64,000 nucleotides of DNA from Chondrosia reniformis (Eukaryota > Porifera > Demospongiae > Chondrillida > Chondrillidae). The notes beneath the pieces were generated by a model. That model did no database searches and had not been told where the DNA came from. It was given only the letters and a program-made list of their open reading frames with translations. The stretch covers positions 3,162,001 through 3,226,000 of the forward strand of contig OX359197.1 in assembly GCA_947172415.1 (NCBI GenBank). Reading direction: 5' to 3'. Every line of letters begins with the position of its first letter. Positions within the stretch are counted from its first letter, which is position 1. The translations under genes were made by a program, and so were the position numbers. Shown piece by piece: positions 29,672 through 39,102 of this stretch.

Positions 29672-31985
29672 CTAGTAAATAAAACTAGTATTGGTACAAA
29701 CAACAAGTAGATACAACTAGTACATAAAACTAATACATACAACTAGTGTATACAATTAGCACCTAAAACTACTAGATACAACTAGTACATACAACTAGTA
29801 CATACAAATAGTGCGTAAACTAGTAAATATGACTTGTTCTTGTACATACAACTAAGGCATACAACTAGTACATGAAACTAGAAAGGAGCAGTTACAAATA
29901 GTATATACAACTAACACATAGAACTATTATATAGAATGAGTACATAAAACTAGTATGTAAAACTAGTACTTACAACTAGTTCATACAACTAGTACCTCCA
30001 AACAGAAACTAATACGTACAACTAGTACATAAAACTAATACATAAAACTAGTATATAGAACTAGTACGTTCAACTAGTACATACAGCTAGTACATACAAC
30101 TAGTACATACAATTAGTACATATAACTAGTACACAAAACTAGTAAGGAGTACTTATAACTAGTTCTTAACAACTTGTACATACAACTATTACATGAAACT
30201 AGTACATATAACTAGTGCCTGCAACTAGTACACACAACTAGTACATACAACTAATACCTACAACTAGTACATACAGTCGGTAAACACAACTAGTTATGAA
30301 TACATACATGTAGTACATACAATTCGTACAAACAACTAGGAACGAGTACATAAAAACTAGTATATACAACTAATACATACAACTAATACATTCAAATAGT
30401 AGATACATGGAACTACTACATACAACTAGAACATAAATCTAGTACACACAACTAGTAGTTACATATATTACCTACAAATACTAAATATACCTAGTACCAG
30501 TAAATACAAATAGTACAAATAGTACAACTAATATCTGCGACTAGTAAAGAAAACTTGTATTAGAACATACAACTAGAACATACAACTGGCACATACAGAT
30601 AGCAATGAGTACATATAACTAGTAAATACATCTAGTATATACAACTGGTACATACAATTAGTACATAGAATTAGTGCAAACAGCTAGGACATACCCCTAG
30701 TACATACAATTAGTACATACAACTAGTACATAGAACGATTACATAAAACTAGTACACACAACCACTACATATAACTATTACATCCACATATACATACAAC
30801 TACTAAATACAACTAGTACATAAAACTAGTACATAGAACGATTACAAAAAACTAGGACATACAACTAGGACATACAACTGGTACATAACTAGTATATACA
30901 ACTAGTATGTACAACTCGTACATATAATTAGTACAAACAAATAGCTAGTACATACAACTTCTACCTACCAAAAAGCCACTAGAACTAGTACTAGAACTTA
31001 TAACTTTTACACAAAGCTAGTACATACATAACTAGTACATATAAATAGTACATACATCTAGTACATACAACTAGTATATACAATTAGTACACACAACATG
31101 TATATACATGTAGTATATGCAACTACTACACACTACTAGTACATACAACTAGTACACACAACTAGTACAAACAACTAGTACATACAACTAGTACATGCAA
31201 CTAGTGCAAAAACAAAAACTAGAACATATTAATACTACATATAATTAGTATATACAACTAGTGCATAGAACTAGTACATAGAAAGAGTACGTAAAACAAC
31301 TACACACAACTAGTAATTACAATTGGTACATATCCAGTACATACATCTAGTACATACAATTAATACATACAATAAGTTCATACAACTACCATATACACCT
31401 AGAGTACATACATGTAGTTCTTACAACCCGTGAATATACCTAGTACTAGTATATACAAATAGAAAATACACCCAGTTCATACAACTAGTAAATATAAATA
31501 GAACATACAACAATTACACACAACCAGAAGAAACAACTAGTACATATAACTAGTACATACAACTAGTACATATAACTAGTACATACAACTAGTACAAAAA
31601 ACTAGTACATACAACTAGTTCCTACCTTGTACCTTGTATAACTAATACTAGATCCTATAACTAGTACTTACAACTAGTACATACAACTAGTTCCCACCTT
31701 GTACCTTGTATAACTAATACTAGATCCTACAACTAGTACTTACAACTAGTAAATACAACTAATACATAAAAATAGTGTATACAAATGGTACCTCAACTAG
31801 TACATACAACTAGTATATACAACTAGAAACTAGTACATACAGCTAGTTCATACAAGTAGTACCTGCAACTAGTACAAAAATTAGTACATGCAACTAGTAC
31901 ATAACTAATACCTCATATAACTAGTACTAGAACCTACAACTAGTACTTACAACTAGTACATACAACTACTACATACAACTACTAG
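29672..31985 (-). repeat. 13-bp minisatellite array, - orientation
   Basis: Same unit. Near 30460-30640 it repeats the text seen at 21355-21490 and 26915-27060, a third copy of that segment. Twice near 31610-31740 it carries a longer block with TACCTTGTACCTTGTATAAC, the reverse of the GTTATACTAGGTAC variant in + arrays. Confidence 0.97.
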
Positions 31986-32527
31986 TTAGTAGTTGTATGT
32001 ACTACTTCTATGTACTAGTTGTATGTACCAGTTGCATATACTAAGTGTATGTACTATTTTAATGAACTAGTTACATGTGTATGTACTAGTTGTATATACT
32101 AGTTGAATGTACTAGAACTAGTTATATTTACTAGTTGTAGGTACTAGTTGTATGTAGTAGTCATATGTAGGAGTCGTATATACTAATTTTATGTACTAGT
32201 TGTGTGTACTAGTTGTAGGTACTAGTTATGTACCAGTTGTATGTACTAGTTGTATGTATATATTAGTTTTACGTAATCGTTCTATGTACTTGTTGTATGT
32301 ATTAGTTTCTAGTTGTATGAAGTAGCTGTATGCACTAGTTGTGTGTACTAGTTGTATGTTCTACTTTTATGTACTAGTTGTGTGTAGTGGTTTTATGTAC
32401 TCATTCAATGTACTAGTTGTAAGTACTAGTTTCTAGTTGTATGTACTATATAGTTGTATGTAGTAGTTGTGTGTACTAGTTGTATGTACTACTTCTATGT
32501 GCTAATTGTGTGTTCTAGTTGTAGTAC
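31986..32527 (+). repeat. Strand-flipped satellite block
   Basis: About 540 bases in + orientation between two - arrays. The left junction is palindromic: TACATACAACTACTA followed within a few bases by TAGTAGTTGTATGTA. A clean inversion of part of the array would explain it. Confidence 0.93.
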
Positions 32528-33212
32528 AGGTATAAACACCTAGTACGTATATCTAATACACAACACTACTACATATTACTAGTACGTACACATATAACTA
32601 GTACATATATATATGACATAAAACTAGTAAACACAACTAGTATATACAACTAGTATATACAACTATATAATACATACAAGTAGTACACACAACTAGTACA
32701 CACAACTAGTACATACAACTAGTACACACAACAAGTACATAAGTAGTACATTCAACTAGTAAATAGAACTAGTACTTACAACTAGTTCATATAACTTGGG
32801 CTTACAACTAATACATATTACTAGAACATACACATATAAATAGTACATAAAAATAGTACATACAAATAGTACATACAACTAGTACACACATCTAGTACAT
32901 TAAACTAGAAATACACCCAGTACATTGAACTATTACAAACAACTAGTACATACATCTAGTACATACAACTAGTACATATAACTACTACATATAACTACTA
33001 CATATAACTACAACATAAAGCTAGAACACACAACTAGTACATAACTAGTACATACAATTAATACATACAACTAGTACATACAACTGGTACATAACTAGAA
33101 GATATAACTAGTACATACAACTAGTACATATAATTAGTACATACAACTCTTACATTCAACTAGTACACACAACTAGTACCTACAACATGTACAAACAAGT
33201 CGTACAGAGAAA
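32528..33212 (-). repeat. 13-bp minisatellite array, - orientation
   Basis: Same unit, ending at the TA target of the Tigger element (33213-33214). Confidence 0.97.
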
Positions 33213-33644
33213 TACAGTCAAACCTCCCATAACGGACCCGCTGAGAAGCGGACAGCCTCCCTTCAATGGACAGGCTCTATGGTACGGATTGAAATCGGCA
33301 TAGTTGTAATATTAAACCAACCTCCGAGAAGCGGACGCTTCTGGATTCCGGACAATGGACAAGATTCGAACTCCCAACGTGATTTTTCAATACAAAATTA
33401 CCTCTGAATAACTGACACCCAGGGAAGCTCACCCTTAAAATGACACCTGGCTCGAACGTGTCACATTTCTTACGGTAACTATATAGGAACGGGTGTCGTT
33501 TACCGCTTCCAGTTTTAATGGTGCAAGATGTGTTAAAATCGTATTACGTTTGCACAGTAATGGATGCACGTTCACGTACTGGTGACTCTACCTAAATCTC
33601 TATCCAGAAACTGGACGCCGGTTCCTCTATGTTCGAAATAAATC

Positions 33645-33720
33645 AAATTTGGTGAGGTATTAAATTTGGCGAGCCTCAAACTACTCGCCAAATCGACAAA
33701 TTTAAGGCCTCACCAAATTT
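33645..33720. repeat. Nested inverted repeat in Tigger left arm
   Basis: Outer arms AAATTTGGTGAGG (33645-33657) and CCTCACCAAATTT (33708-33720) are perfect. An inner pair TTTGGCGAG and CTCGCCAAA lies at about 33665-33692. It could be a small fold-back insertion or a transcription end for the HIRAN gene, which stops 66 bases away. Confidence 0.85.
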
Positions 33721-33785
33721 TCCCACTTTATGTTATATTAATAATTTTCATTAAGTAGTTTTTAGGATGTAGAACTATAAATTTA

Positions 33786-34184
33786 CTATGACACAAGACC
33801 AGATGATATTAATGAGTCCACTAATTCCTTCATCTTATCTATGTAAGGCTTCAGTCCTTTAAGATGATATATACATGGGATTTCAAGTCCATATCCAGCT
33901 CGTCTGTTAACTTTCTCTCCAACAACTTTGGCAAATGCCTTGTTAATGTCTCTTTTCAAAAAGAGTGAAATACTGGGAGCTAGGTTGAAAGGAACATGAC
34001 CAAACACTTGATCTTCTTTGTATACTGCTACAGCATTTTTATCAGCTACATTGGTAGGTTCACGTTTCAGAATCAGCATTTCATCTTGACCTGGTGTCCA
34101 TAGTGCCATGTATGCATGATAGCCTCTTACATATGAGCTAATTTGTAAAAGTTTAAGATTTTTACCTACAATTTGACTCGCCAT
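33786..34184 (-). CDS. HIRAN-domain protein encoded inside the Tigger element
   Basis: A complete, intron-free frame of 132 codons from ATG at 34184 to TGA at 33786-33788. Residues about 10-95 fit the HIRAN fold: YVRGYHAYMALWTP, then LKREPTNVADKNAVAVY and VFGHVPFNLAPSISLFLKR, followed by a conserved-looking GYGLEIPCIYHLKG segment. The REPxNxxDxNAVAV and GHVP motifs are the family's signature. HIRAN domains recognise DNA ends; in HLTF the domain binds a 3'-OH single-stranded end. No helicase or other domain is attached. It starts 95 bases from the transposase start, on the opposite strand. Unlike the transposase it has no stop or frameshift. An accessory role in handling cut ends is inference. 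The alternative is a captured host gene fragment. Confidence 0.85.
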   Translation of the reverse strand: MASQIVGKNLKLLQISSYVRGYHAYMALWTPGQDEMLILKREPTNVADKNAVAVYKEDQVFGHVPFNLAPSISLFLKRDINKAFAKVVGEKVNRRAGYGLEIPCIYHLKGLKPYIDKMKELVDSLISSGLVS

Positions 34185-34278
34185 TTTATTATGCTAATTT
34201 AGCAATCTGCATTAAAAAACGTAATATTTTGATTGAGATAGCTGCATGTAAAACCACGTGGTTGCTAATTTGAGTTTA
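34185..34278. promoter_or_regulatory. Short bidirectional promoter with E-box palindrome
   Basis: The 94 bases between the divergent HIRAN and transposase starts contain the perfect 12-bp palindrome AACCACGTGGTT (34252-34263), which includes the E-box CACGTG, plus A+T-rich sequence. Shared control of both genes is inferred from the spacing. Confidence 0.45.
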
Positions 34279-35915
34279 AGTATGGCTTCAAGAGCAAGCA
34301 ATAGTGGCTCACAGAAGAGGAAGTATTTATCATTAGAGAAGAAGGTAGAAGTTATCAAGCATTTACAGAAGAATCATGGAACATCTAACTCTTGGGGAAA
34401 TCTTTGGATGTGGAAAAACACAGATTGCCTATATCCTTAAGAACAAAGAATCAATACTATCTCTTTACCAGGCTAATACTTCAGGCAGTAGAATTTATAC
34501 AGGGAAGTCTCGCACATCAGAGTATGTTGAAGTCAATGATACTCTCTACAAATGGTTCACTCTTGCTTGCCCTAAGAATATTTATCCCTGAGGGCCAGAA
34601 TTGATGGAGAAGGCTAAAGAGATTGCAGAAAAACTAGGGAAACCAGATTTCAAAGGCTCTAGGGGATGGTTAGATAAGTGGAAGAAGAGGTACAATATGA
34701 AGCAGTTGAGAATTTGTGGGGAGTCTGGTGATGTGCAAGGAGAAACGGTAGAATCTTGGAAGGAAAGAATCCCAGAATTTTGTCAAGGGTATGAAAAAGA
34801 AGATATATGGAACATGGATGAAACGGGCATATTTTGGCGTGCTTTACCAGAACATGGATTTGGCCAGAAGAGTAGAAGCTGTAAAGGTGGGAAAAAAGCA
34901 AGCAGCGTATCACAGTTGCCTTTTTTGTATCTGCATCAGGTCAAAAAGAGAAACCTGTTGTCATCTGGAAATCTGACAATTCTAGATATATGAAAGATTT
35001 TGATAAATCTTCTTTGCCAGTTTGTTATTACAGCCAAAGAAAAGCATGGATGACTGGAGAAATACTAGAAGCTATTTTAACCCAGTTGAATCGCCGCTTG
35101 TCCAGCTCAAACCGCAAAATTTTGCTCCTTATGGATAATGCAGGCTGTCACCCAGGCGATTTGTCTGTAAAATTCTCCAACATCAAGATATGCTTTCTAC
35201 CACCAAATACAACCTCAACTCTGCAGCCTTTGGACCTAGGAATAATTCAAAATTTCAAGGTCCATTATCGTCAATATTTGTGGAGATAAGTTCTCTCAAA
35301 AATTGATGAGTTGGATTCGGCTTCTGATGTTGTAAAATCAGTCAACATATTGGTCGCAATCAGATGGGTTGCTCTAGCGTGGTCTCAAGTAACAGCTGAA
35401 ACCATAACAAAATGTTTCAAAAAGGCAGGCATCTTGGACATGGGGTTGGATGTTGTCAACCTTGGAATTTAAGATGATTTGGACCCCTTCTTAGAGGCTG
35501 ATAAACGCATGGAATTGCAAACTCTAATAGAGCAAACTGGTTGTGAAAGCTGTACTGTAGATCAGTTTTTGACTGGTGATAGTGATCTCCTGTGTGCATG
35601 GAAATGGACGATGACAATTGGGAAGCAGCATTCCTTGAAGAGCTGGAGGACCACCAGCAAGAGGAAGATTGTGGACAAGTAGATGGAGAGAGTGATGCTG
35701 AGGATGACTCTACTGCTAACACAGAAGAGCCCCTTCCCAAGTTGAAGACATACAAGGAAGCCATAACTTCTTTTGAGGAAGTGTCCCGATTTTTGGAATA
35801 TAAAGGACATGGAGAGGAAGCCTTATCTATTGGTTCCACAATTGAGAGGATTGTGAACCTAAAGCACACATTTGCAAGACAGGCAACACTACATGACTAT
35901 TTCACTCAACAATGA
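34279..35915 (+). pseudogene. Tigger-type DDE transposase
   Basis: Starts MASRASNSGSQKRKYLSLEK at 34279 with a pogo-type helix-turn-helix (KVEVIKHLQ... then, after a frameshift near 34375, LGEIFGCGKTQIAYIL). A CENP-B-type second DNA-binding domain follows (GRAWLDKWKKRYN-like, here GSRGWLDKWKKRYNMKQLRI), then the DDE core. The core has IWNMDETGIFWRALP, ILLLMDNAGCHP and PPNTTSTLQPLDLGIIQNFK, so the three acidic residues are all visible. The acidic C-terminal tail ends FARQATLHDYFTQQ at 35913. Family enzymes excise at TA. Lesions include the frameshift near 34375, a TGA near 34590, a shift near 34900-34990, a TAA at 35287-35289, a stop near 35470 and a shift near 35590. The copy is inactive. Confidence 0.92.
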
Positions 35916-36173
35916 TCATGACGGGTAAAACTAACAATCAGATAATTTTATTGATTCATGCATGCATCCATGGCATTCACAACACTTAATCCAAAATCAC
36001 TGTTTTTCAACTTTTACTACTCACAACCATGCATTTTATTAAATTATCTACCATATCTAAACATTTTAGAGGATGATACAATCAAAATTTGATTAACTGA
36101 GATAGGGATAACCTCCGAACAAAGGACAAAAGGACCAGTCTTAAAGTGTCCTTCCTTCAGAGGTTCGACTGTA

Positions 36174-36898
36174 GTATACACAACTAGTATATACATCTAG
36201 TACATACAACTACTACTTACAACTAGTATTTACAACTACTACATAAAGCTAGTACTTGCAACTAGTTCATTAAACTGGAACTTCAACTAGTACATAAAAT
36301 TGTTACATTCAATTAGTATATACAACTAGTACTACAACTAGTACATAGAACTAGCACATTCAACTAGTACTACAACTAGTACAAAGAATTAGTACATACA
36401 ACTAGTACACATAACTAGAACATACTAGTACATACAATCAGTACTTTCATCTAGTACATACGACTTGTGCGTACAGCTAATACATATTACTAGAACACAC
36501 ACTTATAACTAGCACATATATATACTACATACTATTACTGCATACACCTATTACATTAAATTAGAACTAAAACTTGTACATAGAACAATTCCATACAACT
36601 AGTACTTACAACAGTTACAAGCAGGTCATATACATAGAAATAAAGCACACAACTACTACATACAACTAGAACCTACAACTAGTAAATATACCTAGTGTAT
36701 ACACCAATTACCCACAACTAGTTCATACAACTAGTACATACAATTAATATATACAACTAGTAAATACAACTGGTATGTACAACTAATATATACAGCTAGT
36801 ATCTAGTATAGAGAATTAGTAACCAGTACATACAACTAGTATATGCACCCAAATAGAACATACAACTAGGTCATACAACTAGTACATACAAGTAGTAA
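36174..36898 (-). repeat. 13-bp minisatellite array, - orientation
   Basis: Same unit; several blocks here recur at 40290-40980 with small changes, e.g. the text around AAACTAGAACTAAAACTTGTAC. Confidence 0.97.
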
Positions 36899-37662
36899 TT
36901 AAAAAGAAATATTAAAAATTTTCTACAAAAATAGTGAAGATGAAGGGATGGTATAAAAAATAGAGAAACAAGAAAGGGATGTTACACAGTGAAGCATTAG
37001 CTGTGCATGAATCATACAACACCCTTGCTTGTAGGATTCATGTATAGCTAATGCTTCACTGTGTAACATCCCTTTCTTGTTTCTCTACTTTTTATACCAT
37101 CCCTACATCTTCACTATTTTTGTAGAAAATTTTTAATATTTCTAGTTTCTGTACTTTTTATGGAGCATGGGCTAGGAATTAGATTCGTATAATTAAAATC
37201 ATTTTGGTTTCGCAATCTTTGACTGATTATGACGTCATTAAAATGGCGACTTTATTGAGGCCTTGACTCTAGGGTCATGAAAACCGCCATGCTCAATAAT
37301 AGCGTTATCGCTCTCGCTTCTACAAAAGAATACAGCTCGGAAAATTTGCAGTAGTTTCGTGTAACAATTAGTCCAAAAGCTTATATAGTTTTTTAGTTAT
37401 GACTGACGAAGAATAAAAAGAAGAAGAAGAAGAATATGAAGAAGACGAAAATGGGAATTTTTAAAGTTTATTATTTCGCCAGTGGGACATATTCGCTTGC
37501 TTTTAAGGTCTATTTAGAGTATGTATATTGTATATTTAGCTATACATAGCCTTGTTTTGTCGATTTTCGGCCTATTTCGGGATTTTCCTCCTATACCAAT
37601 GTATGGGGAAAACGAAAAAAACCGTGTCATCCCTACATAGGGAGTACTACCGTACTCCCTGA
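36899..37662 (-). mobile_element. Fold-back nonautonomous element, copy B
   Basis: The reverse-oriented partner of copy A. The snap-back part lies at 36905-37135, with GTGAAGATGAAGGGATGGTA on one arm and its near-complement on the other. The conserved middle and the terminal hairpin AGGGAGTAC-TACC-GTACTCCCT (37639-37660) follow. In this copy both snap-back arms are better preserved. The hairpin is followed by GATA; a CTGA ending next to a hairpin also recalls a Helitron 3' end, but no matching 5' TC end was established. Confidence 0.75.
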
Positions 37663-39102
37663 TAATTACACACAACTAGTACATACAACTAGTTTATATA
37701 ACTAGCTCATACAACTAGTATATACAACTAGTATATACAACTAGTATCTAGTACATACAACTAGTACCTACCTAGAACCTAATCTAATTAGTACTAGACC
37801 TACAACTATGACATACAACTTGTACATTCAACTAGAACATACAAGTAGCACATTTCAGTAGTACAAACTTACATAACTAGCAGATATAAATAGTTCATAC
37901 AACTAGTATATACAACTAGTATCTAGTACATACAATCAGTACAAATACCTAGTACATGCAATTAGTACATACAACTAGTAAATGCAGAAGGTATCAACTA
38001 CATACAACTAGTACCTACCTAGTACCTAGTACCTAGTATAACTAGTACTAGAACTTACAACTAGTACATACAACTAGTACACACAACTACTACAAATAAC
38101 TAGTACATACAACTACTTAGAACGGGTACATAAAACTAGCATATAGCTAGTACATACAACTTGTACATACAATTGTACATACAACTAGTGCATACAACTA
38201 GTACATACAACTAGTACATTGAAATACTACATAGACCGAGTACATAACCCTAGTAAATAGCTAGCACATACAACTAGTACATACAATTGATACATATCTT
38301 ATAAATACATCTAGACATACAAATACTACATACAATTTGTCCATATAACTACTACATACAACTAGTATAAACAAATAGTACCTAGCTAGTGCCTTGTAAA
38401 ACTAGGACTAGAACCTACAACTGGTTCATACAACTAGTACATAAAACTAGTCACTACAACCGGTACTTACAACTAATTACTAGTCCATTCAACTAGTACA
38501 TACAACTAGTACATACAACTAGAACCTACAACTAGTTAATATAACTAGTATATACAACAATAACACACAACTAGTCTAAACAACTAGTACATACAAGTAG
38601 TACATACAACTATTATATGCAATTAGGACATGCAACTAGTACATACAACGAGTGGATACGACTAGTATTTAAAACTAGTCTATATAACTAGTACACACAA
38701 CTACTACTTATAACTAATACATACACATATAACTAGTACTTATAAATAGTACATACAACAAGTACAGAGTACTGGTAAATACAACTAGTTCTACAACTAA
38801 TAAGTAGAATTAGTACATACGACTAGTACACACACCTAGTACATACAACAAGTACATACAACAGGCACATACAACTAATACATATTACAAGGACATTCAC
38901 ATATAACTAGTACATATAAATAATACATACAACTACAACATACAACTAGTACATAACTTGTACATACAACTAACACATACAACTAGCACATACAACTAGT
39001 ACATAGCTGGTTCATACAACAAGTACCTACAACTAGTAAATATATCTAGTTCTAGTACATACAAATAGTAAATACTACTTGTACATTCAACTAGTACATG
39101 CA
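37663..39102 (-). repeat. 13-bp minisatellite array, - orientation
   Basis: Same unit, with several blocks containing ACCTAGTACCTAGTATAACTAG, the strand-complement of the longer variant. No genes. Confidence 0.97.

Follow-up and report, generated by a model that had tools for sequence, protein, structure and literature searches.

Transposons of the Tigger/pogo group usually carry a single gene, and two-gene designs among eukaryotic transposons are familiar from PIF/Harbinger, with its Myb-like partner protein, and from MuDR, with mudrB. The HIRAN domain is known from repair helicases and from phages (PMC7785012, PMC11237066). In this report, we describe an element that combines a Tigger transposase with HIRAN. 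It lies in a stretch of 64,000 nucleotides from the sponge Chondrosia reniformis (assembly GCA_947172415.1, contig OX359197.1, positions 3,162,001 to 3,226,000), hereafter the window, in which positions 33215-36171 are a TA-flanked Tigger (pogo) transposon with its transposase on the plus strand and a HIRAN gene on the minus strand. The element is a decayed member of a two-gene Tigger (pogo) clade of this sponge, almost certainly a mobile family with both genes on board, and it places HIRAN in a eukaryotic transposon, beyond repair helicases and phages. A search of titles and the starts of abstracts that paired HIRAN with transposon, transposase or transposable, with subscription papers and Repbase mostly outside its scope, turned up no account of a eukaryotic transposon with HIRAN, and the pogo/Tigger papers that were searched by word do not contain the term.

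Layout and joint movement of the two genes

The evidence for joint movement comes from a sister family, termed family B, and not from the window copy. Its member L039 on C8 (L and C numbers are our handles for loci and contigs) is 2728 bp long, has the terminal inverted repeats (TIRs) CAGTAAAACCTC, and holds a HIRAN gene of 132 amino acids and a transposase gene of 537 amino acids, both intact and separated by a divergent spacer of 142 bases. Beside it, the neighbouring unit of a tandem repeat of about 720 bp represents the empty site, with TA present once, and the flanks of L039, when joined with one TA, align to this unit without gaps and with 94% identity over 200 bases. Since both genes of L039 are intact and the empty site is next to it, the two genes moved as one unit. 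Of nine copies of family B that were searched, eight showed the left boundary, each next to a different left flank, and two the right boundary, as many loci end before the latter.

The same arrangement recurs throughout the genome. A search with the HIRAN protein returned at least 141 loci (150 scored matches, the best of 258 candidates, merged), and the DDE_1 matches set against them are the best 150 of 319 candidates. Among the matches listed, a DDE_1 match lies no more than 3.5 kb from 59 of the 141 HIRAN loci; 200 random placements averaged 2.2 such loci and never exceeded 7. The pairs are divergent, i.e., head-to-head, in 43 cases, tandem in 15 and convergent in one. Fourteen of the 43 divergent pairs, on C3 and C4, are related to one another and not independent. 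The tandem pairs lie on C3 and C4, where most elements hold a second HIRAN, with one exception on C13 whose partners are 3.3 kb apart, and the convergent pair, on C4, falls between two side-by-side element copies. A divergent pair on C6 (L054) is read as a coincidence, being a distant Tigger with its transposase start 1.8 kb from HIRAN.

When the search is started from the other gene, the L039 transposase gives 84 matches (81 of 431 candidates scored) in 70 loci, of which the 53 that include the N-terminus were used for the following counts. A divergent HIRAN lies upstream of the transposase in 13/13 loci with at least 60% identity to L039, in 11/15 at 48-60%, in 13/16 at 40-48%, and in 0/9 below 40%, i.e., in 37 of the 44 loci at or above 40% identity. 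Public homologues are only suggestive of such a co-occurrence: the lists of the best 120 HIRAN and the best 120 transposase homologues share nine equal-sized contigs, against 0.6 by chance and at most 4 in 5000 trials. One of the nine, with 1767 bp, is shorter than the 2058 nucleotides needed for both proteins and is therefore a coincidence. The shared-contig pairs correlate with r = 0.50 for all nine (231/5000), and with r = 0.80 without a chromosome-sized contig (n = 8, including the 1767-bp one; 2/5000).

Some loci depart from the basic plan. Among the lone HIRAN loci, L019, L029 and L036 are deletion derivatives that have kept HIRAN and lost most or all of the transposase, and L061 is a short derivative of this kind with several TIR motifs. 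In the C3/C4 lineage (C3, 2.7-4.2 Mb; C4, 3.3-3.9 Mb), the second HIRAN is found downstream of the transposase. The three-gene variant L041:2355-5760 has inverted arms of about 1150 bp with 97% identity, a HIRAN in each arm and the transposase between them, and owes its second HIRAN to the fact that these arms are inverted duplicates. At L040:4772-7289, a HIRAN-less Tigger is nested within a HIRAN-bearing one, and at L062:2224-2859 and L063:1919-2317 there are HIRAN-like frames of a different type, for which the fetched stretch yielded no transposase.

As for the window element, whose features are collected in the table below, the original prediction had proposed most of its parts from the letters alone, and they hold: the TA-bounded ends are real, with 11 of 12 matching positions between the TIRs; the complete 132-codon HIRAN frame matches PF08797 (8.3e-9, 35.6 bits against a cut-off of 24.7); and the transposase is a pseudogene with several lesions, whose broken frames still match HTH_Tnp_Tc5 (7.9e-9) and DDE_1 (9.2e-25). 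The distance between the two starts, given there as 94 bases, has to be corrected, and the spacer is presumed to be a bidirectional promoter. Near full-length copies of this unit number six, the window included, with 93-100% identity, and are located on C7, C9, C13 and C14; the element ends in L002-L006 are CAGTCAAACCTC, CAGTCGAACCTC or CAGTTGAACCTC. The suggested genome search turned up both genes in the same divergent layout in further copies and in other families. HIRAN lies inside the TIRs, where the family boundaries are, and for this reason insertion borders of its own were rejected.

Features of the transposon in the window (positions count from the first letter of the window)
Feature	Position	Strand	Remarks
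TA, left target-site duplication	33213..33214		seen beside the element end
Left TIR, CAGTCAAACCTC	33215..33226	+	11/12 identical to the inverted right end
HIRAN gene, 132 amino acids, intact	33786..34184	-	PF08797; predicted HLTF-HIRAN fold
Divergent intergenic spacer, 97 bp	34185..34281		between the two start codons
Tigger transposase pseudogene	34282..35915	+	HTH_Tnp_Tc5 and DDE_1; about 3 frame changes, 3 stops
Open piece with part of the DDE_1 catalytic domain	34990..35289	+	profile positions 37-134 of 177, 9.2e-25
PIP-box-like (PCNA-interacting) motif QATLHDYF	35880..35903	+	near the transposase C-terminus; motif definition in PMC5371812
Right TIR	36160..36171	-	pairs with the left end, 11/12
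TA, right target-site duplication	36172..36173		seen beside the element end

The element is surrounded by arrays of a 13-bp minisatellite, CTAGTACATACAA (window 31017-33206 and 36172-39000), whose orientation flips and in which several element copies are embedded; it is possibly a dispersed or centromeric satellite.

Common descent, losses and selection

The distances among the HIRAN proteins follow those among the transposases, with r = 0.84 for 33 elements (0/2000 permutations) and r = 0.76 for 11 lineage representatives (3/5000). For this comparison two of 35 rows, L041 and L059, were empty and dropped, and L040 was represented by its outer part, as it was also in the tree. The latter, made with FastTree from 40 transposases in an alignment anchored on L039, unites the HIRAN-bearing ones in a single clade (0.997) that excludes four further Tigger-like sequences; the outgroup, in which L054 is included, was drawn from such elements of this genome. 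HIRAN is found on both sides of the deepest split within the clade, and some inner nodes are weak (0.34-0.46). The HIRAN-less tips L042, L043 and L044 nest inside the clade, which points to at least two losses of HIRAN. Taken together with the codon counts, distances and tree read as a history in which the clade had HIRAN close to its base, passed it on with the transposase and lost it at least twice. Because some lineages have lost it, HIRAN appears to be helpful and not essential, and the element at L042:3589-5837, in which none was found, is a natural control for the contribution of HIRAN.

The original prediction had left two explanations for the intact HIRAN frame beside a broken transposase, selection or simply its shorter length, and each turns out to apply at a different level. 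Within the window family, the ratio of nonsynonymous to synonymous substitution rates (dN/dS) of HIRAN is 0.56-1.61, as in decaying copies, and a length model gives a probability of 0.23 that HIRAN is intact given the six transposase lesions of the window copy. Across 13 copies, seven HIRAN frames are intact, against 6.1 expected from length-scaled transposase lesions (counts tallied by hand, and L019, with its transposase mostly deleted, left out). With a within-family dN/dS near 1 and this chance of 0.23, the undamaged HIRAN of the window copy reflects the shortness of the frame, and selection was rejected as its cause.

Between lineages, the proportions of differing synonymous sites (pS) are saturated at 0.65-0.93, those of nonsynonymous sites (pN) are 0.21-0.41, and their ratio is 0.26-0.56; by these counts, the HIRAN gene is under purifying selection at this level. 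The less diverged subfamily L015, L055, L057 and L060 gives six pairwise ratios in the range 0.43-0.75, of which two reach P < 0.05. The pN/pS ratios of the transposase are similar to those of HIRAN, with the dN/dS and pN/pS values of the L040 transposase disregarded, as two nested elements are mixed there.

Possible roles of the HIRAN protein

The predicted structure of the transposon HIRAN protein matches the HIRAN fold of HLTF. In an alignment of 50 HIRAN sequences, 16 columns are invariant, and the equivalents of the HLTF pocket residues N91, D94 (presumably the contact of the 3'-OH) and H110 are, by sequence alignment, conserved or nearly so. Queries with HIRAN against collections of viral contigs and genome contigs, and with the transposase against plasmids, found no relatives.

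The intact transposase of L039 (L039:3091-4704) contains CENP-B_N, HTH_Tnp_Tc5 and DDE_1 (4e-37), the first two being above the cut-off in both L042 transposases as well, and its catalytic residues D177, D283 and D316, picked from the motifs by eye, give a DD32D spacing. Two transposase homologues from Oscarella lobularis are annotated as "tigger transposable element-derived protein". The C-terminus is PIP-like in 62 of the 84 full-length sequences among the best 120 transposase homologues by a loose pattern and in 42 by a strict one; shuffled tails give 0.6 and 0.1, respectively. The pogo transposase is reported to bind PCNA, with unclear relevance (PMC5371812).

The explanation that we favour, with somewhat better than even confidence, is a two-gene clade in which HIRAN acts on 3' ends for the element. 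Its parts deserve different degrees of trust: that HIRAN works for the element itself, within its life cycle, is highly probable, and that it does so through binding DNA 3' ends is an evenly balanced proposition. A full element consists of a transposase gene and a small stand-alone HIRAN gene, head to head across a spacer mostly of about 100-150 bp and within one TIR pair. The HIRAN protein would bind single-stranded 3' ends, as the domain does in HLTF, which seizes such ends with it (PMC11237066). Together with a transposase that ends in a PCNA-motif-like sequence, it may couple transposition to replication forks, or, alternatively, it may protect the 3' ends that excision produces. From the predicted fold and the partly conserved pocket residues we infer a role in end handling, at forks or in repair, much as first proposed. 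Targeting of forks taken by itself is a tentative idea of low probability, and so is its bolder form, suggested by analogy with TnsE of Tn7, of a two-part fork sensor in which the transposase docks on PCNA and HIRAN recognises nascent or cut 3' ends. If true, such a sensor would time transposition, or aim it, at forks, where cut-and-paste elements can gain copies. A large clade whose partner protein has, by prediction, a 3'-end-binding fold makes the link between pogo/Tigger and replication directly testable.

Several observations weigh against this explanation. Five of the six full-length window-family copies have both flanks in common, i.e., the 13-bp minisatellite with identical junctions and about 80-96% identity in the longest flank matches; a single insertion, duplicated along with its surroundings, is their most likely origin, so that the six copies amount to just two independent sites. 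L002 is the only one in different surrounding DNA, and a 42-base pattern for its empty site gave 0 matches. Of the DDE_1 matches listed, none is near 82 of the 141 HIRAN loci. The element at L042:3589-5837 has TIR motifs and an intact transposase of 553 amino acids, and no HIRAN was found in it; the L043/L044 lineage is also without one, which makes HIRAN dispensable in some lineages. The HLTF pocket is kept only in part, with N90 replaced by T43 and the stacking Y93 by a variable A46, and Y72 has no clear counterpart in the sequence alignment; full functional impairment of HLTF came from a 90/91 double mutation. In a wider set (n = 18), D47 of HIRAN is not invariant. A PIP motif is also reported for the pogo, human Tigger and Lemi1 transposases (PMC5371812), and since it occurs in these, it is by itself no argument for a joint role with HIRAN.

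A different possibility is that the small HIRAN is a decoy: in competition with HLTF or Rad5 for 3' ends, it would keep HLTF from stripping the transposase off cut ends and from reversing forks near the element. HLTF is reported to remove Cas9 from cut DNA via HIRAN, and the isolated HIRAN domain to be dominant negative in that system (PMC11237066); the transposon protein also stands alone and is predicted to share the HLTF fold. That some lineages have lost HIRAN speaks against an essential shield, and not against a decoy. Blocking of the host HLTF nevertheless seems unlikely to us, and fork guidance and 3'-end shielding would rank above it; were it to occur, the protein would be a possible natural HLTF inhibitor.

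We also consider it improbable that HIRAN is a regulator, which would bind the element's DNA or its transposase and limit transposition, or control the shared promoter. The head-to-head genes with their short spacer (37/44 loci) fit such a role, as do the derivatives L019, L029 and L036, in which HIRAN outlasts most or all of the transposase; on the other side, HIRAN is not known to bind DNA in a sequence-specific way.

That HIRAN was captured once and carried along as a neutral passenger is very improbable and largely refuted: lineages without HIRAN and the within-family drift (dN/dS about 1) would suit it, and it is opposed by the between-lineage pN/pS of 0.26-0.56, the 16 invariant columns in 50 sequences, the retention of HIRAN in 37 of the 44 transposase loci with at least 40% identity, and its divergence in step with the transposase. 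Finally, the idea that this single copy gained HIRAN by chance insertion or by local capture, for which the usual one-gene Tigger structure and the one-gene Tiggers outside the clade in this same genome (L042:1189-3052 and L045:2009-3943) might speak, is refuted by the recurrence of the unit in six near full-length and many diverged copies, the conserved layout, the co-divergence and the family B empty site.

Comparison with known systems

The favoured two-gene clade is large and old, and its elements may come with equipment of their own to act on DNA ends or replication forks. With PIF/Harbinger and MuDR the clade shares the plan of a cut-and-paste element with a second protein beside the transposase, and it differs from them in that their transposase families and partner proteins are unrelated to those found here. 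Compared with the HIRAN of HLTF and Rad5, the sponge protein stands alone with 132 amino acids, is devoid of helicase or RING parts and is encoded by a transposon, and the equivalents of N90 and Y93 of HLTF are not conserved in it.

With Tigger/pogo elements, of the IS630-Tc1-mariner group, the sponge clade has in common the TA target, short TIRs that start with CAGT, the combination of CENP-B_N, HTH_Tnp_Tc5 and DDE_1, the DD32D spacing and the C-terminal PIP-like motif; in PMC7386202, Tigger is described with DD29-36D and the same DNA-binding motifs. The window TIR (11/12 bp) fits the Tigger/pogo range of 40 bp or less, whereas the arms of L041, at about 1150 bp, exceed both the long TIR type of 392-856 bp (PMC7386202) and the 20-741 bp given for sponges (PMC9219625). 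What sets the sponge element apart from Tigger/pogo is the addition of a second, head-to-head HIRAN gene.

The closest parallel to the fork sensor is TnsE of Tn7, which binds recessed 3' ends, has a clamp-binding motif and guides insertion to forks (PMC5371812). In both cases, the element would encode a 3'-end binder and a clamp motif, a likeness of function for which homology is not claimed; in the sponge element, unlike in TnsE, the clamp motif is on the transposase and the putative 3'-end binder is a separate protein.
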